Below, piece after piece: positions 3,089 through 30,128 of a stretch of DNA of 30,128 nt (position 1 is the stretch's first letter; each line of letters opens with the position of its first letter). A program made the position numbers and the translations under genes. The DNA is taken from IMG/VR virus record IMGVR_UViG_3300037843_000625, positions 1-30,128 of that record; one strand, given 5' to 3'. The stretch is from a virus. A model generated the notes under the pieces. It was not told the origin of the DNA. It saw only the letters and a program-made list of their open reading frames with translations, and made no database searches.

Positions 3089-3522
3089 TCACCAAACGTG
3101 GCCCACGGGTCAAGAATGCAAAAAAGACCACAATGGAGATCGACGGCAAACCGCATACTTTCCCCTCTCATCTTGAAGCCCTGCGATATATCGAGCTCAA
3201 ACAGCTCAAAAAGGCCGGCATCGTGACCGAGATCGAATGCCAGCCGGCATTTATTCTGCAGGAACCATTCCGAAAGTGTTGTGGGCTGGTCATTCCCGAT
3301 CCTCATGGAATCAAACGTATCTGCCCGTTTTGTAAGAAAAAAACGCCCTTGACAAAACCGATCATTTACCGGGCCGATTTCCGCATCACCTATGCGGATG
3401 GCCATGAGGAAATTGAGGACGTCAAGGGTATGGAGACCGAGGTCTTCAAGCTCAAGCAGAAGATGTTCGAGTACCGGTACCCGGACCTGTCTCTCAAACT
3501 CGTCAAGAGGGTGCGGCAATGA
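3085..3522 (+). CDS. DUF1064-family putative PD-(D/E)xK nuclease with inserted zinc ribbon
   Basis: The 145-residue protein matches the pattern of the phage DUF1064 family. It has FPSHLEALRYIEL (Glu31), then KAGIVTEIECQPAF, then YRADFRI (Asp98) and EIEDVKG (Asp112, Lys114), followed by KLKQKMFEYRYPDL. The Glu/Asp/(E/D)xK layout is that of restriction-like nucleases, and family members are proposed to act like Holliday-junction resolvases during recombination or packaging. Between the first and second motifs sits an insert with CC (65-66) and CPFC (80-83) that looks like a zinc knuckle and is not part of the minimal family. It is coupled to both neighbours by ATGA overlaps. Family assignment is good; biochemical activity is inferred. 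Confidence 0.8.
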   Translation: MITKRGPRVKNAKKTTMEIDGKPHTFPSHLEALRYIELKQLKKAGIVTEIECQPAFILQEPFRKCCGLVIPDPHGIKRICPFCKKKTPLTKPIIYRADFRITYADGHEEIEDVKGMETEVFKLKQKMFEYRYPDLSLKLVKRVRQ

Positions 3523-5093
3523 ACGACGAAAAGAAAAAGTTCGGTGTGAAGATCTGCCGGGAAAGGAAGTGCCCGGACCTTAAAGTCAGGGATCCAGAAT
3601 ACCCACAATCGGGGGAACAGTGTGAAGTCACAGGATGCATGCCCGGTGCTATGGGTTGCTGCCCGAAAGAAATGGCCGATGACCAGTTCATCCACCGGGC
3701 AAACCTGAACTACGGACCTTACACTGCACGGCCCGGGCCGAAGAACTGCCCAAAGGAGTGTCCGTATAAAATCATCATTGATGGTGAGAAAATGGTCTGG
3801 GAAAAGGGAGGGATCAAAGGGCACAATGTCCCTGCGAAGATTCCTACATGTGCACTCACCGGCTGGGCTCTCAAAGATTCCAATCTTTGTCCCTGTAACG
3901 TGCTCGGCAACCCCCGCCAGGAGGACCAGATCAACCGCCTGAAAGCGCTCGTCAAGATGCGTCTTGAGTATTGTGAGGAAGATAACCCCATCATCGGAAT
4001 GTGTGCCATGGGTATCTGCCCGGATGGGAAAGACCGGGAACGATGGGGAGATGACGGCAATACGTCATTCTGCCCGGTAATCCGGCTCCCAACATCGGCA
4101 CTCATAGCAGGCCGTGGCTGTCCGCTGTGGAGGATCCCCGCGAAGCTGCTGTCGGTCGAATCTAGGATCCCATCACAACCCCAAACATCGACGAAAAAAA
4201 CCGATGTAAAAATAATGGAACAAAATAATGAAAAACAACAATTTCAAAACAAACCGCCTTCTGGTATAAAAAAGGAGCAGCAGAAACCGACCGGCCGCAA
4301 GTGCACTCTGGAAGAAATGGAGGCTGCTCGCAAGCAGGTTTTGAACGAGATGATTGCCGAAGATACGGTAAAGGAAAATCCGGTCATCATTACAACCCAT
4401 CGCGATGAAAACGGCAACGAGTGCGGCGGCTGCCTGATGCCCATCTGGCGCCGGGACCGGTGGCTCTACATCTGCGAAGAGTGCGGATACCAGGAGGTCC
4501 CGACCACGGCCCAGACACATATGATCAAGGAGATGATTGCTGACGGGATGCTCACAGCCCCACCGGCGGACAAGAGCCGGCAGGGAACGCTGTTCGAATT
4601 CCGGGAAGATGCACGAAGCTCAACCCCGAAATGCACGGAGGTAAAAACAGCTCCGTGTACGAGCAAGAACCTCACGTTCTGCGTCACCTGCGGCAAAGGA
4701 ACGGCCTGCGACCACTATGAGAAGCCATCGACTGCATGCAGCTGCGTGGACTGGGTCAAGGAAGTCTATGTGCAGCACTGCTGCGGGACCTGCGGCCATC
4801 ACAAAGGCCGGAAGACGTTCCATGAAAGCTGCCCCCGGCTCGGCGAGCTGTTGTTCAAAGGCGGCGAGAAGTCCGCGAAGATCCTGATGGAAGAGACCGC
4901 ATCAACAATCCCGTGCCGGCACTGGCTTGACAAAAAGGACCGGTGCCCTGAGCTCAGCGATGATACACCAAGTGGCTGCTTGATCGGCGGCAGTTGCACT
5001 CAGAAAACCGAAAAGGCGCGCCGGGCCCTCGGCTGCATGCTGCCAGTGAAACCGGAAAAACCCGCGAAAAAAAAGGAGCGTGAAACCTCATGA
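3519..5093 (+). CDS. Large Cys-rich protein, possible multi-zinc or Fe-S protein
   Basis: This 524-residue protein contains about 37 cysteines in clusters. The N-terminal half (1-205) has pairs such as CRERKC, GCC and CPKEC. The middle has CGGC and a CEEC knuckle (residues about 305-335). The C-terminal third (about 370-510) has CVTC, CC-GTC and further pairs. A Gln/Asn/Lys-rich linker (about 210-265) separates the halves and is encoded by conspicuously A-rich DNA, suggesting a fusion of two modules. I do not recognise a family. The clusters would hold several zinc ions or Fe-S clusters. Position between a nuclease and PCNA suggests a role in viral DNA or RNA transactions, but no catalytic motif supports a specific call. 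Confidence 0.7.
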   Translation: MNDEKKKFGVKICRERKCPDLKVRDPEYPQSGEQCEVTGCMPGAMGCCPKEMADDQFIHRANLNYGPYTARPGPKNCPKECPYKIIIDGEKMVWEKGGIKGHNVPAKIPTCALTGWALKDSNLCPCNVLGNPRQEDQINRLKALVKMRLEYCEEDNPIIGMCAMGICPDGKDRERWGDDGNTSFCPVIRLPTSALIAGRGCPLWRIPAKLLSVESRIPSQPQTSTKKTDVKIMEQNNEKQQFQNKPPSGIKKEQQKPTGRKCTLEEMEAARKQVLNEMIAEDTVKENPVIITTHRDENGNECGGCLMPIWRRDRWLYICEECGYQEVPTTAQTHMIKEMIADGMLTAPPADKSRQGTLFEFREDARSSTPKCTEVKTAPCTSKNLTFCVTCGKGTACDHYEKPSTACSCVDWVKEVYVQHCCGTCGHHKGRKTFHESCPRLGELLFKGGEKSAKILMEETASTIPCRHWLDKKDRCPELSDDTPSGCLIGGSCTQKTEKARRALGCMLPVKPEKPAKKKERETS

Positions 5094-5797
5094 TGAAAAT
5101 CGACCAGGGGCGCCTTGCAACATTCGTGAACCTGATCCGGGCCCTGGTGCCTGAGTGCCGGCTGATAATCACCTCGGATGGCCTCAACACCATGGCAGTC
5201 GACGCCGCAAATGTCGCCATGGTCAGCGTGCGGCTGCCAAAGGATGCCTTCGAGGAGTTCAAGACCCAGCCGGACGAGCTCGGCATGGACGTGACCAAAT
5301 GGAAATCAGCACTCGACATCTGCAAGAACTCACCCATCGAAATCGAGCAGAAAGACAGCAAAGTCGTGATCCGTGACGGCCATTACACCTACACCCATGC
5401 ACCGCTCGATCCTTCAACCGTCCGGAAACGGCCGAACATGCCCACCCTCTCGCTGGCAGCCACGACAGAAGTAGATGCCAAGGAACTCCTCGGGGCGATC
5501 AAAGCCATGGGTGTTGTCGGGGAAAAGATTCGATTCACCATGAAAGGTGTCGTGCTGGAAGTCAGCGCAGAAGGTGACACCGACAAACTCGTGAAAGAGA
5601 TTCAATCAAATGGTGGGAAAGGTGGCACCGCCACAGCCCTCTTCTCGCTCGATTACCTCACCGACATCGCCAAGGCGATAAAGGATTCCGGGACTGTTAC
5701 GGTCCACATGAAGACCGACAACCCGGTCCGGTTCGACTGCGATATCGACCAGATGGAGGTATCGTACCTCCTGGCACCCAGACTGGAGGGAGATTGA
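5090..5797 (+). CDS. pcn: Virus-encoded PCNA sliding clamp
   Basis: The 235-residue protein is an archaeal/eukaryotic-type PCNA: ring-shaped DNA clamp that tethers polymerase, ligase, FEN1 and other partners. Diagnostic segments are SDGLNTMAVDAANVAMVSV with the acidic ELGMDV after it in the first domain, an interdomain connector around residues 103-122, the DAKELLGAIKAM helix opening the second domain, and the C-terminal YLLAPRLEGD resembling the family's APR(I/L)E ending. Length is slightly under the usual ~245. ATG 5090 overlaps the upstream stop (ATGA). No polymerase gene is seen, so it presumably recruits the host machinery or replaces the host clamp. PCNA genes are known from some haloarchaeal tailed viruses. 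Confidence 0.92.
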   Translation: MMKIDQGRLATFVNLIRALVPECRLIITSDGLNTMAVDAANVAMVSVRLPKDAFEEFKTQPDELGMDVTKWKSALDICKNSPIEIEQKDSKVVIRDGHYTYTHAPLDPSTVRKRPNMPTLSLAATTEVDAKELLGAIKAMGVVGEKIRFTMKGVVLEVSAEGDTDKLVKEIQSNGGKGGTATALFSLDYLTDIAKAIKDSGTVTVHMKTDNPVRFDCDIDQMEVSYLLAPRLEGD

Positions 5798-9098: not shown

Positions 9099-9296
9099 AT
9101 GATTCCCCCGCGGATTTTCTACGAAGATAAGGAACTGACGCATGTAAAATGCCCGCGGGAATATTTTCCCGCTCTTTCTCTACGAGTCTGCATATCTTGT
9201 AAATGGCATACGAGCATTCAGCTCCCACCAAAAGATCCACCATACGTCGTCTGCCATCTCGAAGGCGAGTGGTACAATGCGGCGTTGACATCATGA
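9099..9296 (+). CDS. Small Cys-containing hypothetical protein
   Basis: The 65-residue protein starts at ATG 9099 after GAGGCAG and overlaps the small terminase gene by ATGA. Cysteines at about 18, 31, 34 (CISC) and 52 (VVCHLEGEW) have the spacing of a four-Cys zinc site. The coupling to terS implies co-expression with packaging genes. Family not recognised. Confidence 0.62.
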   Translation: MIPPRIFYEDKELTHVKCPREYFPALSLRVCISCKWHTSIQLPPKDPPYVVCHLEGEWYNAALTS

Positions 9297-9796
9297 CCGC
9301 AAAAAAGAAATCCGGGCAAAAACGCCCGGCGAAGTTGTCAAAAGCGCCGCAGAAACGACCCGGAGCGACCAGTAAGTACGACCCGGATCACCACCCGTTC
9401 ATGGCATGGGCGCTTGCGATCCGGGGCAAGACCAACAAAGAGATCGCCGCCGGGCTTAGGATTTCGACCGGCACCCTCTTCACATGGGGCAAGGAACACC
9501 CCGAGTTCCTGAGCTCCCTAAAAGCGGGCAAGGATTCAGCGGATACAAAGGTTGAAAGCTCTCTTTTCATGAGGGCTTTCGGCTATGAATACGAAGAAGT
9601 CAAAACTGAAGAAGGCCCCGACGGTACGAAAATCACCCGGACCGTCAAGGCAGTACCCCCTGACACCACCGCTATGATCTTCTGGCTCAAGAACCGCAGG
9701 CCGAAAGAATGGCGCGACAAGCACGAACTCACCGGCGATGCCGGAGGCCCGCTCGTTGTCAAGGTCCTCAAAGGCGTCAGCATGGAGGATCTATGA
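9293..9796 (+). CDS. Terminase small subunit
   Basis: The 167-residue protein recognises viral DNA for packaging. After a basic N-terminal tail (to about residue 38) comes a helix-turn-helix (FMAWALAIRGKTNKEIAAGL, then RISTGTLFTWGKEHPEF). Then come an oligomerisation region (SADTKVESSLFMRAFGYEYEE) and the family-typical end PPDTTAMIFWLKNRRPKEWRD with a C-terminal tail likely to contact the large subunit. ATG 9293 overlaps the upstream stop (ATGA); longer starts are less likely. Unusually it is separated from the large terminase by a fusion enzyme gene. Confidence 0.85.
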   Translation: MTAKKKSGQKRPAKLSKAPQKRPGATSKYDPDHHPFMAWALAIRGKTNKEIAAGLRISTGTLFTWGKEHPEFLSSLKAGKDSADTKVESSLFMRAFGYEYEEVKTEEGPDGTKITRTVKAVPPDTTAMIFWLKNRRPKEWRDKHELTGDAGGPLVVKVLKGVSMEDL

Positions 9797-11265
9797 CCGG
9801 CCCGCTCGTATCGGTCATCATCCCGGCCTATCACGCAGAGAAGTTCATCGCCCGGGCCCTGGACAGCGTCAAAAAGCAGACATTCCGGGACTTCGAGGTT
9901 ATCCTTGTTGTCGACGATTTCCAGCACGATCGGACCGGCGATATCGCAGCAGAATACCTCCCAAAACTCAATATTATCCCGGTTTTCAGCGAGAAAAAGA
10001 CCAGCCCGGCCAACGCCCGCAACCGTGCGATCGAGAGGGCAGAAGGAAAATACCTCGCATTCCTCGACGCCGATGACGAATGGCTGCCCCACCACCTGGC
10101 GAATGCAATCTCTTTTCTCACGCAGAACCCGGGTATCCAGGTCTACTATGGGATGTGCGTCAACATCTTAGGCGAGCCGGTCGGGTTTCACGGCCGGCCC
10201 ATTGAAAACATCAACCAGTATTGCACGGCCCCCCACTCTGCAATTGTGTGCGTCAACCCTCCCCCGGCATTGTTCGACGAGCGGTTAGCCGCTGCCGACG
10301 ATTACCTCTGGCTCCTCGAAATGCACCGGAAGGGCGTTAAATTCCATTTCAACCCCAAGCTGGAGTCCAACTATCACATGCACGGCGGCAACCTGACCGG
10401 AGAGGCACCCGGCTTCTGGCGGCAGATGTTCCAGGTCCACTGGTACGACAAGACGCCCGGCTGGGACTGCCTCACCATGAAAGCCCCCACCGACATCCAG
10501 GTCGAGCCCACCACTCGGTGCGGATTGAAGTGCAAGATGTGTATCCGGTCGGCCGACCAGGAGATCCGCGATATCACGCCCGAAACGCTCTGGAAGATCC
10601 TTACGGCGCACCCGGAAAGCAGGCTGGTGAAACTGCAGGGGCTGGGAGAACCGTTCATGCACCCGCAGCTGGACATCCTGGCGATGATGGTACGGGCTGC
10701 CGGGAAGTATGCGATCACTATTACGAACGGCCAGCCGGAGAACGTCGTCCCGTGGTCCCGGTATTTCAACGAGGTTATGTTCTCGCTGGACTACATCAAA
10801 GGGCCGGCGCCGGCGAGCGCTCACGAAGGCAGCCCGAAAAAGGTTATCGGGAAAATCCTCGAAATCAAGGAGAAATACCCGGAAGTAAACCTCACCATCA
10901 ACCAGGTTATCTCGGCAGATACCCGCGATCGGGACATATGCGACGTCGAGACGTTCTGCTCGGACCACTGTATCAAACTCATCAGAAACCGGATCGCGAA
11001 CTGGCATAGCAACCCCTCAAAAGGAATTGCGGAAATGGTTGCCCTGGACCGGGCCATACACGGACCGCTCGATCCATTCGACCCCCACTGTCCCTGGGGA
11101 TTTACGTGGGCATATTACGACGCCCGTGGCAGGCTCCATCCCTGCTGCGTCCGGATGTCCGATGAATATTTGATGGACGGCGGCTGGAACGATCCGGCCA
11201 TGCAGGAATTCCGACGCCAGCGGCTTGACGGGGGCTGTGAAACGTGCAAGAGGTGCCCGGATTGA
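9793..11265 (+). CDS. Glycosyltransferase family 2 - radical SAM/SPASM-like fusion
   Basis: The 490-residue protein has two enzyme domains. Residues 4 to about 215 are a GT-A family 2 glycosyltransferase: PLVSVIIPAYHAEKFIARAL, nucleotide-binding VVDD (39-42), the metal-binding LDADDEW (91-97) and a likely acceptor-site acidic pair in AAADDYLWL (167-175). Residues about 232-490 are a radical SAM enzyme: VEPTTRCGLKCKMC with the CxxxCxxC 4Fe-4S motif (Cys243, 247, 250), GLGEP (283-287), and a Cys-rich C-terminus (C433, CC 451-452, C482, C485, C488) resembling a SPASM auxiliary-cluster domain. It overlaps both terminase genes by four bases, so it is made with them. It may modify a virion protein, a host surface component or DNA; the substrate is unknown. 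Confidence 0.88.
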   Translation: MTGPLVSVIIPAYHAEKFIARALDSVKKQTFRDFEVILVVDDFQHDRTGDIAAEYLPKLNIIPVFSEKKTSPANARNRAIERAEGKYLAFLDADDEWLPHHLANAISFLTQNPGIQVYYGMCVNILGEPVGFHGRPIENINQYCTAPHSAIVCVNPPPALFDERLAAADDYLWLLEMHRKGVKFHFNPKLESNYHMHGGNLTGEAPGFWRQMFQVHWYDKTPGWDCLTMKAPTDIQVEPTTRCGLKCKMCIRSADQEIRDITPETLWKILTAHPESRLVKLQGLGEPFMHPQLDILAMMVRAAGKYAITITNGQPENVVPWSRYFNEVMFSLDYIKGPAPASAHEGSPKKVIGKILEIKEKYPEVNLTINQVISADTRDRDICDVETFCSDHCIKLIRNRIANWHSNPSKGIAEMVALDRAIHGPLDPFDPHCPWGFTWAYYDARGRLHPCCVRMSDEYLMDGGWNDPAMQEFRRQRLDGGCETCKRCPD

Positions 11266-12638
11266 CCGCTGCTGCAGCCGCCCCCCCCTATCTCATTATT
11301 GAAGACCCAAAAGGCGGCAACGCCAAAGCGTTCCAGCCGTACGGGGGCGGCCTGCAGATCTGGAAATGCAAGGCGCCGGAAGTCATCATCAGCGGACCGG
11401 CAGAGACCGGCAAGACCCGGACCTGCCTGGAGAAACTCGATGCCCTCATGTGGAAATATCCCGGGGCTCAGGCAATCATCGTCAGGAAGACCTACCACAG
11501 CCTCAAGATGACCGTGCTACTCACATTCGAGAAAAAGGTGCTCGGCCCGGGCTCGCCGGTCGTGAAACTCGGCGGCGAGCATCGTGAAGGCTATGTGTAC
11601 CCGAATGGCTCCCGGATCTATCTCGGCGGCCTTGATGATCCTGACAAGGTCCTCTCCTCCGAATGGGACGTTGTCTATATCAACCAGACCGAAGAGCTCA
11701 CGCTCAATGACTGGGAAGTCATCACGACCAGGACAACCGGCCGGGCCGGCAACATGCCCTACGCCCAGGTGCTCGGCGACTGCAATCCAGACAGGCCGAC
11801 CCACTGGATCCGGCACCGTCCCAGTCTCGCCTTTTTCGAGTCCCGTCACGAAGACAACCCGGTCCTGTTCAACCCGGTCACGCACGAGATCACCGAGCAG
11901 GGCCGGCGCACGCTCGCGGTCTTGGACGGCCTGACCGGTGTCCGGTACCAGCGGCTGCGGTTGGGCAAGTGGGCTGCTGCAGAAGGCACCGTTTATGAAG
12001 AGTTCGACCGGGCGGTCCACCTGATCGACCGGTTCCCGATCCCGGACGACTGGGTCAAATTCCGGGCCATCGATTTTGGGTATACCAACCCATTCACCTG
12101 CCAGTGGTGGGCGATCGATGAAGACGGCCGGCTCTACCTATACCGCGAGCTCTACATGAGCAAGCGCCTGGTCGAGGACCACGCCCGGCAAATCCTCGAG
12201 TACACCGGCACCGAGCAGATCTATGCGACCGTGGCTGACCATGACGCCGAGGACCGGGCGACACTCGCAAAGTACGGCATCGAAACTATCCCGGCCATGA
12301 AAGCGGTTTCGCTCGGCATCCAGGCAGTCCAGTCACGGCTCCGGAAAGCCGGCGATGGACGACCGCGGTTATTCATCATGCGGGATTCGCTCATTGAGGT
12401 GGACCCCTGGCTGCAGGCTGCCCGCAAACCCCTGTGTTTCGAGCAGGAGATGGATGCGTACGTCTGGAAACAATCGGCAGACGGCAAACCGAACAAAGAG
12501 GAGCCGGTCAAGGCAGATGACCATGCCTGCGATGCTGCCCGGTACCTCGTGACCTATGTCGACAGCGTGACTGAGGCTGCCGATATGACCGAGGCCGTGC
12601 TGGTCTACGAAGACGACTACAGCATCAGCCCGTTTTAG
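11262..12638 (+). CDS. Terminase large subunit
   Basis: The 458-residue protein is the packaging motor ATPase and nuclease. Walker A is GPAETGKT (45-52), the Walker B-like strand is WDVVYINQTEEL (about 135-146), and a coupling motif with GDCNP follows. The C-terminal RNase H-like nuclease has its acidic residues in AIDFGY (Asp about 271), ADHDAED and KADDHACDAARY. I chose TTG 11262 because it overlaps the previous stop as TTGA with GAGGTG upstream; GTG 11244 would add six residues. Length is normal for the family. It is coupled to the GT2-radical SAM fusion upstream. Confidence 0.93.
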   Translation: MTAAAAAPPYLIIEDPKGGNAKAFQPYGGGLQIWKCKAPEVIISGPAETGKTRTCLEKLDALMWKYPGAQAIIVRKTYHSLKMTVLLTFEKKVLGPGSPVVKLGGEHREGYVYPNGSRIYLGGLDDPDKVLSSEWDVVYINQTEELTLNDWEVITTRTTGRAGNMPYAQVLGDCNPDRPTHWIRHRPSLAFFESRHEDNPVLFNPVTHEITEQGRRTLAVLDGLTGVRYQRLRLGKWAAAEGTVYEEFDRAVHLIDRFPIPDDWVKFRAIDFGYTNPFTCQWWAIDEDGRLYLYRELYMSKRLVEDHARQILEYTGTEQIYATVADHDAEDRATLAKYGIETIPAMKAVSLGIQAVQSRLRKAGDGRPRLFIMRDSLIEVDPWLQAARKPLCFEQEMDAYVWKQSADGKPNKEEPVKADDHACDAARYLVTYVDSVTEAADMTEAVLVYEDDYSISPF

Positions 12639-25924: not shown

Positions 25925-28900
25925 ATGTCCGGCGTCACCGTAACCACCACCTACTACGGCTCATATGTAGTAGTCACGTTCACCGCGACGACAAACACCA
26001 CAACAGGAACGACGACGTGGACTCCGCCCGCGGGCGTTACCCAAGTTGACTATCTCGTTGTTGGCGGCGGCGGTGGTGCAGGAAGCAGTGACAATAATGG
26101 CACTGCTGGGGGTGGCGGTGGCGGAGGGGTGCTGCAAGGATTTGGGTTCTCTGTATCTGGCACAATATCGGTGCAGGTCGGGGGCGGCGGCACTCTAGGA
26201 AGTTCCGGCCGACACGGTAATAACGGCGGCAACTCGATCTTCTCCACTATCACGGCTTATGGCGGGGGCGGTGGTGGAGAAGCCGAAAGTGGTGATCTAG
26301 CACAAAATGGTGGCTGCGGCGGGGGAGCAGGTGGTATTACTAACTATACCTCCCCGGGTAGTGGTGTAGCAGGACAAGGATATGCGGGTGGGGATGGTGC
26401 TGCCGGCAGTTATCCTCAAGGTGCAGGCGGTGGCGGAGGCGGTGCTGGCGCAGTAGGTGGCAACGCTTCCGGCACAGGGACCGCAGGCTCGGGCGGTATC
26501 GGGGTTCAGAGTAGTATCGCCACGGGGACTCCGATTTACTATGGGGGAGGCGGCGGCGGCGGTTGCCACGGCGGAACCGGCGGAACCGGGGGTAATGGTG
26601 GTGGTGGCGCTGGCTCTAACACATGGAATCTATCGAACGCAGTAAGCGGGACACCTGGGCTCGGAGGTGGCAGTGGCGCGAACGCAGGGGTAGATACCGG
26701 CGCGCAGACGGGTGGCTCTGGCGTAGTTATCATTAGGTATCTTGTTCCCGGTTGGATCGCTGTCGCTGCACCTGTAGGGGTGGGTGCCACCGGCGTCCTA
26801 TCGACATTTGGTTCGGCCCTGTCCGCGCACGCCCCGGTCAGCGTGGTGGCTTCTGGGGTTCTGCTAAATAAGATAAAAATAGCCGGGCAGGCTCCGGTGG
26901 GCGTCAAGGCAACGGTAATCCTATCAGATAACGCGGGAATGAAAGGACAGGCTCCCGTGGCCGTTAAGGCGGGAGGGGCTCTCGCGAATAAGACCCCTAT
27001 GGGTGGCCACGCCCCGGTCGCCGTGCATGCCGGCGCGGCTCTCGCGAATAGTGCACTCCTATATGGTCAGGCCCCGGTTAGTGTAGCCGCCGTGGCCCTC
27101 GTGCTCGAAGCGGGGTCGATGGTCGGGCTGGCCCCGGTCGGGGTTGCCGCCACCGGACAACTATCAGCCGATATCCCCATTGGTGTTCAGGCCCCGGTGG
27201 GCGTCAAGGCATCCGGGGTTCTGATCGAAGCGGGGTCGATGGTCGGGCTGGCTCCCGTCTCCGTACAGGCTACCGGGGTTCTGACGAATGGCCTGCCCCT
27301 CGCGGGGCATGCGCCGGTCAATGTGGCTACCACCGGGGTTCTGACGATCAAATACGGCCTATTAGGTACGGCCCCGGTGGCGGTTAAGGCGACCGGAGTT
27401 TTAGGGGATAATGCGATTCTGATCGGTCAGGCCCCGGTTGGTGTGCAGGCTACCGGGGTTCTATGGGAGAAAGAGGCGCTCTATGGTCAGGCCCTAGTCG
27501 GGGTGGCTGCTCTGGGGGTCCTTAACGGCCCAATCGCATTCTACGGGTCTGCTCCTATCAGGGTAGTCGCTAGGGCTTCCCTCACATGTGTCACGCAGAT
27601 CCTTCCTCCCTCAAGCATCACCTATGAGCCCGGTCTCTACAGGGTTACCGATATCACAGTCGAGCGGACGGTGCAGGACGCCTACTATAAGTGCACGATC
27701 AACACCAGTGGATACTCAGACTATCCGGCGTGGTCTCGAGTGGTCCCGTGGATGCCAAACTACGACGGCACTCTTCCGACAGTATTCCTTGGGATGCTAC
27801 CCTATGCTACGCACAGCATGAAGACCGCGAATAACGTGACGACGCTTCTGGCCTACAGTTACGATTACTATCTCGCTAAGAACCCTGTGCCGAGATATCT
27901 CTGGACTACGAATGGCATCTCAGATCCCGGCGCGATCATCACCGCTCTGGTCAACTCAACCGGAGTGAGTGGCTTCCCACCGATATCCTGCGCATCCTGT
28001 ATGTCCACCCCTGGCTGGGGGACGACTATTCCTTATAAGCAGTTCTCGTGGACTGAGAAGACCACGATTCAGGACGCGATTAATGAGATTCAAGCATATA
28101 CTCAGATGATATTCATTTGCTCATGGCATGCCGTAGGGGGGGTACTTGAACCCGTCTGGTTCTGGATCCCGGCAGACGCCATCGACACATATTTTACAGA
28201 TCTTCCGCCAGTGGCGACAATCACCTTGGGATCCGGGGAGGGAGCCCATGTGGATTCAGATGCGGGCGCAGACGTCACCGATAAACCCGACGACGGATAC
28301 AACACAGTCATCGCCCGTGGCACGGATTCTCTTGGTAACCTCTATGAGTGCATGATTGACAGCACAGGTCTGATCTGGCTAAATAATGGTTCGGCCTCTA
28401 CCCTGCTGCCTGCGCAGACGTGGCTTGATAGCGTAGAGATCGCGCTCGGCACACCCAACACGAATAATCCGGCTCAGATTGTGGTCACACTATCTGGTAG
28501 CCCCATGACTACCGGGGGGACTCTAATCATCGGAGGTTCGATCTACGGCCAACCCTACTCGGAAACACTTGCAGTCGGTGCATCCGACCCGGTCGGCACA
28601 GTCTATAAGACCTGTGCAAAGATGATCTGCAACTACTTAATTCCCAACTGCGCCTCATCCGGCGGGGGGAAGTTAGCCGTTACGACTCAGCCCGATCTCG
28701 CATCTACGGGGCAATATGTGACAAGTCCGCCGGGTGCGCCGTTCAATCAAGATTTCCCCTGTACCTATACCGACCCGACTAATTCAGCTTTTGGCTCATT
28801 CGCTCTCGTGCAGGCAAGAGCTCAGTTGCTATATCAGTACGTGACAGTCGTGCCCTTCGTTTACAGGGTTGAACTCATCGGCAGAGTGGATCTTCAGATC

Positions 28901-29269
28901 TACCAGAGGATCCAGTTCACGAACTTCCAGATCATCAACTCCCAAGGAGTGCCTGAGACCGCAATCCCCTACCTCGGCACGTCGTATTTCCGTATCATCG
29001 GCATCACGAAGAAGATGACCGTGACTGATAGCGGGATCGATGTGCGGAGTCAGATACAGTTCACAGCCGATACGTATCTCTCGCAGAAGAACCTCCTGAT
29101 TCCCGTGATGGCCGACGACGCGGTCACAGAGCTGAACAACCTCGTTGACTATAAGCAGAATAAAGTGAAGAAGACGAAGACCGCCACGATCACCTCTGTG
29201 AGCTCGAAAAACCAGATCACAGTCACAACCCCTGATGGCTCTACAGTAACCGCTCAGGTGCCACAATGA
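25925..29269 (+). CDS. 1114-residue tail-tip protein: Gly-rich domain, 20-residue repeats, hub-like C-terminus
   Basis: Residues 1-40 are Thr-rich strands. About 38-275 is a Gly-rich domain starting YLVVGGGGG, a motif shared with many phage adhesins that fold as polyglycine-II bundles, and ending GGSGVVIIRYLVPG. About 282-553 is a tandem array of 20-residue units APVxVxAxGVL. From about 560 a hub-like domain follows (YEPGLYRVTDITVERTVQDA; KQFSWTEKTTIQDAINEIQA; YRVELIGRVDLQIYQRIQF). It contains an insert (about 848-920) related to the tail tube insert. The end (TATITSVSSKNQITVTTP) is strand-rich. It probably combines tail tip and receptor binding in one chain. Confidence 0.82.
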   Translation: MSGVTVTTTYYGSYVVVTFTATTNTTTGTTTWTPPAGVTQVDYLVVGGGGGAGSSDNNGTAGGGGGGGVLQGFGFSVSGTISVQVGGGGTLGSSGRHGNNGGNSIFSTITAYGGGGGGEAESGDLAQNGGCGGGAGGITNYTSPGSGVAGQGYAGGDGAAGSYPQGAGGGGGGAGAVGGNASGTGTAGSGGIGVQSSIATGTPIYYGGGGGGGCHGGTGGTGGNGGGGAGSNTWNLSNAVSGTPGLGGGSGANAGVDTGAQTGGSGVVIIRYLVPGWIAVAAPVGVGATGVLSTFGSALSAHAPVSVVASGVLLNKIKIAGQAPVGVKATVILSDNAGMKGQAPVAVKAGGALANKTPMGGHAPVAVHAGAALANSALLYGQAPVSVAAVALVLEAGSMVGLAPVGVAATGQLSADIPIGVQAPVGVKASGVLIEAGSMVGLAPVSVQATGVLTNGLPLAGHAPVNVATTGVLTIKYGLLGTAPVAVKATGVLGDNAILIGQAPVGVQATGVLWEKEALYGQALVGVAALGVLNGPIAFYGSAPIRVVARASLTCVTQILPPSSITYEPGLYRVTDITVERTVQDAYYKCTINTSGYSDYPAWSRVVPWMPNYDGTLPTVFLGMLPYATHSMKTANNVTTLLAYSYDYYLAKNPVPRYLWTTNGISDPGAIITALVNSTGVSGFPPISCASCMSTPGWGTTIPYKQFSWTEKTTIQDAINEIQAYTQMIFICSWHAVGGVLEPVWFWIPADAIDTYFTDLPPVATITLGSGEGAHVDSDAGADVTDKPDDGYNTVIARGTDSLGNLYECMIDSTGLIWLNNGSASTLLPAQTWLDSVEIALGTPNTNNPAQIVVTLSGSPMTTGGTLIIGGSIYGQPYSETLAVGASDPVGTVYKTCAKMICNYLIPNCASSGGGKLAVTTQPDLASTGQYVTSPPGAPFNQDFPCTYTDPTNSAFGSFALVQARAQLLYQYVTVVPFVYRVELIGRVDLQIYQRIQFTNFQIINSQGVPETAIPYLGTSYFRIIGITKKMTVTDSGIDVRSQIQFTADTYLSQKNLLIPVMADDAVTELNNLVDYKQNKVKKTKTATITSVSSKNQITVTTPDGSTVTAQVPQ
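26768..27583 (+). repeat. 60-bp tandem repeats (20-residue APVxV units)
   Basis: A first unit of 63 bp (26768-26830) is followed by twelve units of exactly 60 bp to 27550 and a partial unit to 27583. Each unit starts with codons for APV or a variant (ALV, API). Units differ at many silent and coding sites, so the array is old, but two copies of the EAGSMVGL linker are nearly identical in DNA (around 27108-27130 and 27228-27250), indicating more recent duplication or conversion. Repeats of this length likely make a regular beta-solenoid or fibre shaft. Confidence 0.9.
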
Positions 29270-29793: not shown

Positions 29794-29835
29794 TATTCCC
29801 AAGGGATAGCCCGGTTACTTCACATCGAATAATAT

Positions 29836-29919
29836 GCGAGGGATGGGATTCGAACCCAAGAACTCCTGCGAGACTGGGCCCTGAACCCAGCGCCGTTGAC
29901 CTGGCTTGGCTACCCTCGC
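29836..29919 (-). tRNA. tRNA-Leu (anticodon CAG), class II
   Basis: Read on the minus strand, the 84 bases fold with a perfect acceptor (GCGAGGG with CCCTCGC), a D arm containing AGGTCAA, an anticodon stem CTGGG/CCCAG with loop TTCAGGG (anticodon CAG, reading CUG), a long variable arm of about 14 bases typical of leucine tRNAs, and the T arm GGGTTCGAATCCC. CCA is not encoded. Its 3' end lies 42 bases from the last viral gene, the usual position for a provirus attachment site. Confidence 0.93.
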
Positions 29920-29971
29920 CCGTTTTTGGTTGTGTTGCGCGATCGTGACCTGATACCATATTCCGTCGTGC

Positions 29972-30014
29972 GGCCCTGAACCTGGCGCCGTTGACCTGGC
30001 TTGGCTACCCTCGC
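29972..30014 (-). repeat. Duplicated 5' half of tRNA-Leu, possible att scar
   Basis: This 43-bp segment repeats 29877-29919 with only two differences, both in the 5' strand of the anticodon stem (CTGGG versus CCAGG in tRNA sense). It covers acceptor, D arm and anticodon loop and then stops matching after GGGCC. The tRNA's 3' half is missing. It is a tRNA gene fragment, most simply a remnant of integration or tRNA replacement. Confidence 0.85.
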
Positions 30015-30034
30015 GCCTGTATAGATTACGTTCA

Positions 30035-30048
30035 CGGTTTAATAAAGG
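30035..30048 (-). promoter_or_regulatory. TATA box upstream of the tRNA-Leu fragment
   Basis: On the minus strand CCTTTATTAAACCG carries TTTATTAAA (plus 30038-30046), an archaeal TATA box whose near edge is about 24 bases before the first base of the tRNA fragment at 30014. The original tRNA promoter therefore now faces the truncated copy, and the complete tRNA lies 95 bases further downstream. Confidence 0.6.
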
Positions 30049-30082
30049 TAGGGGAAAATATACCGGTGACGGGAGGCGGTGG

Positions 30083-30128
30083 TTACTGCTTCTGCCCGTT
30101 CGCATACCGTTTGAGTTCCCGCTCCCGC
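30083..30128 (-). CDS. C-terminal fragment of a gene entering from the right
   Basis: On the minus strand the sequence reads RERELKRYANGQKQ then TAA (plus 30083-30085), a charged tail like that of a real protein. Everything upstream is outside the window. It may be a host gene flanking the tRNA or a viral gene such as an integrase; 14 residues do not allow a choice. Confidence 0.4.
   Translation of the reverse strand, partial: RERELKRYANGQKQ

Follow-up and report, generated by a model that had tools for sequence, protein, structure and literature searches.

A glycosyltransferase–radical SAM fusion gene inserted in the packaging operon of a Methanoregulaceae provirus: a putative glycan-decoration cassette

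Introduction

Radical SAM enzymes that act on sugars are known from antibiotic pathways, and the mycofactocin pathway uses both a radical SAM enzyme (MftC) and a GT2 enzyme (MftF). Among viruses, the host-recognition cluster of pelagimyophages has radical SAM cassettes together with glycosyltransferases (PMC7029224), and GT2, GT4 and GT9 genes are found in methanogen viruses (PMC9723712). Little is known about methanogen viruses, for which surface glycans are likely receptors. Virus-borne glycan-modification genes are thus already known, and the GT2–radical SAM fusion described here would, judged from its sequence, be a new form of them. No paper on such fusions was found in the literature searched, and among annotated phages we obtained matches to the GT domain or weak radical SAM matches only, none of which spans the fusion protein.

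The fusion is encoded in a 30,128-base virus record (the window). It resembles mycofactocin in bringing a radical SAM enzyme together with a GT2 enzyme, and SuiB in the fold of the radical SAM domain, but the substrates of these two systems are ribosomal peptides and no precursor-like motif was found in the window. The C-terminal domain also resembles in fold the carbohydrate-acting radical SAM enzymes BtrN (Z 16.9), DesII (Z 16.9), BlsE (Z 17.6) and SpeY (Z 12.9), which differ from it in belonging to antibiotic pathways, in lacking a GT fusion and in an identity of 13–18 %. A stand-alone viral radical SAM protein of the twitch type (L003, IMGVR_UViG_3300027418_000290) aligns with the domain end to end at ∼20 % identity with the same cysteines, and its neighbours, as read from their sequence, resemble sugar-nucleotide genes; it differs in having no GT2 domain.

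Results and Discussion

The features of the locus are collected in Table 1. The fusion gene runs for 490 codons without an internal stop and shares four bases with each terminase gene, ATGA at 9793–9796 with terS and TTGA at 11262–11265 with terL, the latter provided that TerL starts at TTG 11262, a start that matches the aligned TerL start of a close relative (L029). An earlier note on this DNA had described a single 490-residue protein combining GT2 and radical SAM domains with their key motifs intact, overlapping both terminase genes by four bases; the single ORF, motifs and predicted folds agree with this, and both overlaps are found in the sequence. Additionally, the gene was intact in two further contigs, one from the virus collection (L002; 6677/6677 bases aligned, one mismatch to the window) and one from a Methanoregulaceae MAG from SPRUCE peat (L008; 3065 bases, one mismatch). 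As both contain the same fusion, a chimera of two genes made in assembly, which the note had named as a possible refutation, was ruled out.

Table 1. Features of the fusion locus and of the virus–host junction (positions in the window)
Feature	Position	Strand	Basis or remark
GT2–radical SAM/twitch fusion gene, 490 aa	9793..11265	+	Single ORF; intact in L002 and L008
GT2 (GT-A fold) domain, residues 1–218	9793..10446	+	Pfam, alignment with L025/L116, fold
Radical SAM domain with twitch/SPASM-like tail, residues ~225–490	10447..11265	+	Alignment, motifs, predicted fold
Shine–Dalgarno-like GGAGGA (9784–9789) and ATGA stop/start overlap of terS and fusion gene	9784..9796	+	Sequence
GAGGTG within the fusion-gene end and TTGA stop/start overlap with terL	11250..11265	+	Sequence
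Terminase small subunit gene (terS)	9203..9796	+	PHROG 309 E 2e-43; 9203 is the longest listed ORF, real start probably near 9293
Terminase large subunit gene (terL)	11262..12638	+	TIGR01547 E 3e-18 (below the TIGR01547 cut-off); PHROG 2 E 1e-35
tRNA-Leu(CAG)	29835–29919	-	At virus–host junction region 29835–30128
Repeat of tRNA-Leu 5' part	about 29972–30014		
End of host acyl-CoA synthetase gene	from 30083		

The N-terminal part matches PF00535 (GT2) in Pfam at E 7e-28 and carries the nucleotide-binding Asp, DxD motif and catalytic-base Asp of such enzymes. Its motifs are VVDD (residues 39–42), DADD (92–95), a catalytic-base-like DD (169–170) and H197, and D42, D92, D94 and D170 are invariant across eight aligned sequences. 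The model of this domain matches solved GT2 enzymes (WrtF, a Leptospira GT, AvpGT and TarS) with Z 23–25 and rmsd 1.7–2.0 Å over 181–194 residues, the best fold matches being polysaccharide and teichoic-acid enzymes. By motif and model, the domain is an intact GT2 glycosyltransferase of the GT-A fold, with putative sugar-transfer activity.

The C-terminal part scores below the Pfam cut-offs, both for Radical_SAM (PF04055; E 4e-4, 21 bits vs 29.5, a cut-off that aids recognition and does not define membership, which rests on motif and fold) and for SPASM (PF13186; E 0.003, 18.2 bits vs 21.5). It has the cluster motif CX3CX2C at C243/C247/C250, residue numbers that the earlier note had given correctly, and a GEP motif at 285–287. 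We assign it to the radical SAM superfamily despite these scores because its predicted model (mean pLDDT 78, pTM 0.81) places CX3CX2C on a partial TIM barrel and matches radical SAM enzymes of known structure (VIA Z 15–18.6, about 180–250 residues). SuiB, which modifies peptides, comes first (Z 18.6), but the sugar enzymes trail it by no more than about 2 Z units, and the modelled fold cannot tell the substrate. The tail contains C433-x17-C451 (C433-x12-G-x4-C451) and C482-x2-C485, with C452 and C488 as additional cysteines. The three cluster cysteines, the GEP motif, the TN strand end and the four tail cysteines are common to 13 aligned sequences, in which the relatives are 16–22 % identical across the whole domain.

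This arrangement is the twitch pattern of four cysteines and one auxiliary cluster (CX9-15GX4C ... CX2C), invariant in the 13 sequences. The full SPASM pattern of seven cysteines and two auxiliary clusters (CX9-15GX4C ... CX2CX5CX3C ... C) is absent, the tail having its first half and a terminal CX2CX2C only. The Cys-rich, SPASM-like end proposed earlier is thus upheld for the conserved tail cysteines and corrected from SPASM to a single-auxiliary-cluster twitch; by sequence the tail is divergent. Structure prediction, suggested as a check on degeneration, gave a GT2 domain that matches GT2 enzymes at Z ∼25 and a radical SAM domain with its active-site motifs kept.

Among 80 TerL relatives, some on contigs that start too near terL to show the preceding gene, tblastn matches to the fusion gene were found only in L002 (the same virus) and L025. 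In a set of TerL relatives, the gene preceding terL usually encodes 120–210 residues, often with a four-base overlap. In the closest (L026–L030 and L034) it encodes TerS (tblastn), and in these, as in provirus L226, terS stands immediately before terL with no insert. A more distant provirus in G198 (PCNA 54 %, TerS 47 %, portal 46 % and capsid 34 % identical to those of the window) has no insert. Because the nearest relatives with sequence upstream of terL and the G198 provirus are without it, the fusion gene is a lineage-specific, moron-like addition to the late (packaging) operon. A conserved coupling of the gene to packaging was rejected on the distribution among the 80 TerL relatives. The earlier note had argued for expression with the packaging motor rather than as a separate moron; this we abandon, given that terS lies directly against terL in the relatives and that the GT2 gene of L116 (see below) is upstream of terS. 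The gene is embedded between the terminase genes by its overlaps, as that note had it, but is not a functional part of the packaging operon. A search of 232 host-order genomes gave no donor of the radical SAM domain: the only matches to the domain were the MAG itself and a stand-alone protein (L115; 44 % over 75 aa).

At the same position before terL, a close relative (L025, IMGVR_UViG_3300033402_000176; TerL 93 % and portal 94 % identical, DNA 91 % identical from terL onward) has a GT2 gene 60 % identical to the GT2 domain of the window and, after it, a Methyltransf_24 gene; the overlaps are of four bases (ATGA). Its cassette is unlike that of the window in that the GT2 is a separate gene and the second enzyme is a methyltransferase, not a radical SAM protein; this methyltransferase matches a PHROG annotated 'DNA methyltransferase'. 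A second relative (L116) has the order GT2 (57 % identical to that of the window), a 103-residue ORF, a methyltransferase 61–62 % identical to that of L025, a DNA methyltransferase, terS and an unrelated TerL. Its Methyltransf_24 gene and the ParB-domain DNA methyltransferase gene that follows occupy L116:1195–2987, just upstream of terS. Since these two independent relatives, beyond which our search gave no further GT2–methyltransferase cassettes, pair the same GT2 family with a methyltransferase, the simplest reading of the gene orders is that the GT2 was kept and its partner exchanged, radical SAM (fused) against methyltransferase (separate). The GT2-plus-partner cassette would then move among these viruses. 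Between the window and L025 the GT2 has a dS of about 1.5 (1.55) and a dN/dS of about 0.2, against a dS of 0.4–0.5 for the flanking TerL and portal genes (0.48 for TerL). These values agree with a GT2 that was acquired by exchange and kept under selection rather than one that drifted fast in place.

With regard to the host, the MAG (G001) contains three pieces of the virus at 99.9–100 % identity to the window, and one of these contigs continues from the virus beyond tRNA-Leu(CAG) and reaches an acyl-CoA synthetase gene. The related genomes G176 and G162 have the tRNA-Leu and the matching flank without the virus. Thus, the right end of the window is a virus–host junction and, as the virus pieces sit in a Methanoregulaceae MAG beside tRNA-Leu, a Methanoregulaceae methanogen, a peatland archaeon, is well supported as host. 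The virus-encoded PCNA (5090–5797; PF00705/PF02747), related to that of the G198 provirus, agrees with this assignment. No CRISPR spacers targeting the virus were recognized among the short, weak matches obtained.

The search for the same two-domain architecture proposed in the earlier note returned fused proteins in two other contigs. One, classed as viral by IMG/VR (L118, IMGVR_UViG_3300033064_006579), encodes a 652-aa protein with the same domain order in a sugar-gene cluster (with genes for a GDP-mannose-dehydratase-like protein, a PIG-L deacetylase and a B12-radical SAM protein), but its GT2 is ∼43 % identical over ∼110 aa only, its radical SAM part 16 %, and no terminase adjoins it in the stretch seen. 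The other, from a Pelobacter sp. UBA5610 MAG (L009), encodes a 616-aa protein with GT2, radical SAM and SPASM in the same order, all above Pfam cut-offs, but with a long linker, 25 % identity over residues 5–314 and no recognized viral genes nearby on its bacterial contig. Furthermore, in a viral contig with an unfused pair (L156:2159–9829), genes for PIG-L, radical SAM/SPASM, GT4 and GT2 stand side by side, and after them come an ORF of 608 residues and a terminase large subunit with a weak match; by gene order this may be an independent sugar cassette near packaging genes. The GT2–radical SAM architecture is thus not unique to the window, although our searches found it rarely.

On balance, we think that the fusion, inserted among the packaging genes of a Methanoregulaceae provirus, probably serves the virus in glycan decoration. 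The GT2 domain would take a sugar from a donor, either nucleotide- or lipid-linked, and pass it to a glycan acceptor, and the radical SAM domain, which would hold a single auxiliary [4Fe-4S] cluster, would radically alter the sugar or the acceptor after or before transfer, candidate changes being dehydrogenation, epimerization and deoxygenation. No nucleotide-sugar gene was seen in the fusion-carrying virus, so the donors would have to be supplied by the host. The product probably alters the host surface (S-layer or exopolysaccharide glycan) or decorates the virion, and receptor switching or superinfection exclusion may result. In the related viruses the methyltransferase would carry out the second step, the cassette then being a GT2 with an exchangeable sugar-tailoring enzyme. 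We infer a sugar as the substrate of the radical SAM domain, the surface as the target and an effect on infection. The methyltransferase swap speaks for surface or virion glycan decoration, and so do the sugar genes around the other viral pairs and the carbohydrate-acting enzymes among the fold matches of the radical SAM domain; of the earlier proposal that capsid, tail or S-layer is modified we retain the target in this form. By analogy, surface remodelling or virion decoration would follow the precedent of pelagimyophages and methanogen viruses (PMC7029224, PMC9723712).

More tentatively, an archaeal virus may radically edit a sugar on the host surface or its own virion through one GT-fused polypeptide, in a group that trades this step against methylation. 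To our knowledge, such modular, radical-based serotype conversion has no prior description. If right, a radical SAM enzyme would join the glycan-tailoring tools of viruses, and a defined two-domain enzyme with a natural radical SAM/methyltransferase exchange would be at hand to probe archaeal surface-sugar change.

The other part of the earlier proposal, a two-step, mycofactocin-like modification in which a capsid, tail or S-layer protein first receives an attachment point from the radical SAM domain and is then glycosylated by the GT2, we regard as unlikely. SuiB as best fold match speaks for it, as do weak similarities to YydG/EpeE, a peptide epimerase, and to the GT2 MftF, but the N-terminal partner is a GT2 and no RRE-like peptide-recognition domain was seen, the conserved cysteines suffice for one auxiliary cluster and not the full SPASM set, and in relatives a methyltransferase stands in for the radical SAM part. 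Moreover, a mycofactocin-type pathway of MftA-like precursor and MftC-family maturase was not found in the window: no frame has an MftA-like C-terminal motif, and the radical SAM part gave no match to the mycofactocin maturase (TIGR03962) at E 0.01. The fusion might instead glycosylate and radically edit a modified DNA base, with the L025 methyltransferase in the same role. The adjoining packaging genes, the ParB/DNA methyltransferase gene next to the L116 cassette and the PHROG match of the L025 methyltransferase point this way, and given that match the methyltransferase swap does not prove a sugar substrate. Such DNA hypermodification is nevertheless quite improbable, as the GT2 folds best onto polysaccharide and teichoic-acid enzymes and the Pfam scan of window proteins gave no hydroxymethylase, TET/JBP or base-kinase family, a scan in which several late genes were compared with PHROGs only and the left end of the provirus was missing, so that absence is no proof.

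The sub-cut-off Pfam scores and the low identity of the aligned relatives would also suit a radical SAM domain whose catalytic role was lost or changed and which serves the GT2 as scaffold or specificity domain. Since the fold is confident and none of the cluster cysteines, nor the GEP motif or TN strand end, is lost, we give this very little credence. An assembly or binning artefact joining two genes would recall the nearest viral relatives, in which GT2 and partner genes are separate, but is scarcely conceivable with the same fused gene in a virus-collection contig and a MAG contig and same-order fusions in L009 and L118.

Apart from the fusion gene, several features of the window were recorded. 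Its left end (1–225) cuts into a tandem-repeat ORF (HKDEIAENQRRYREE...), and the provirus is incomplete on that side. A 524-residue protein encoded at 3519–5093 is very cysteine-rich with many CxxC pairs; it had no match in Pfam or PHROG, and a segment shares 75 % identity with a related provirus. The gene at 25925–29269 encodes 1114 residues; its product, probably a tail fibre, has a glycine-rich domain (PF21722) at the N terminus and many APVxVxATGVL-type repeats.
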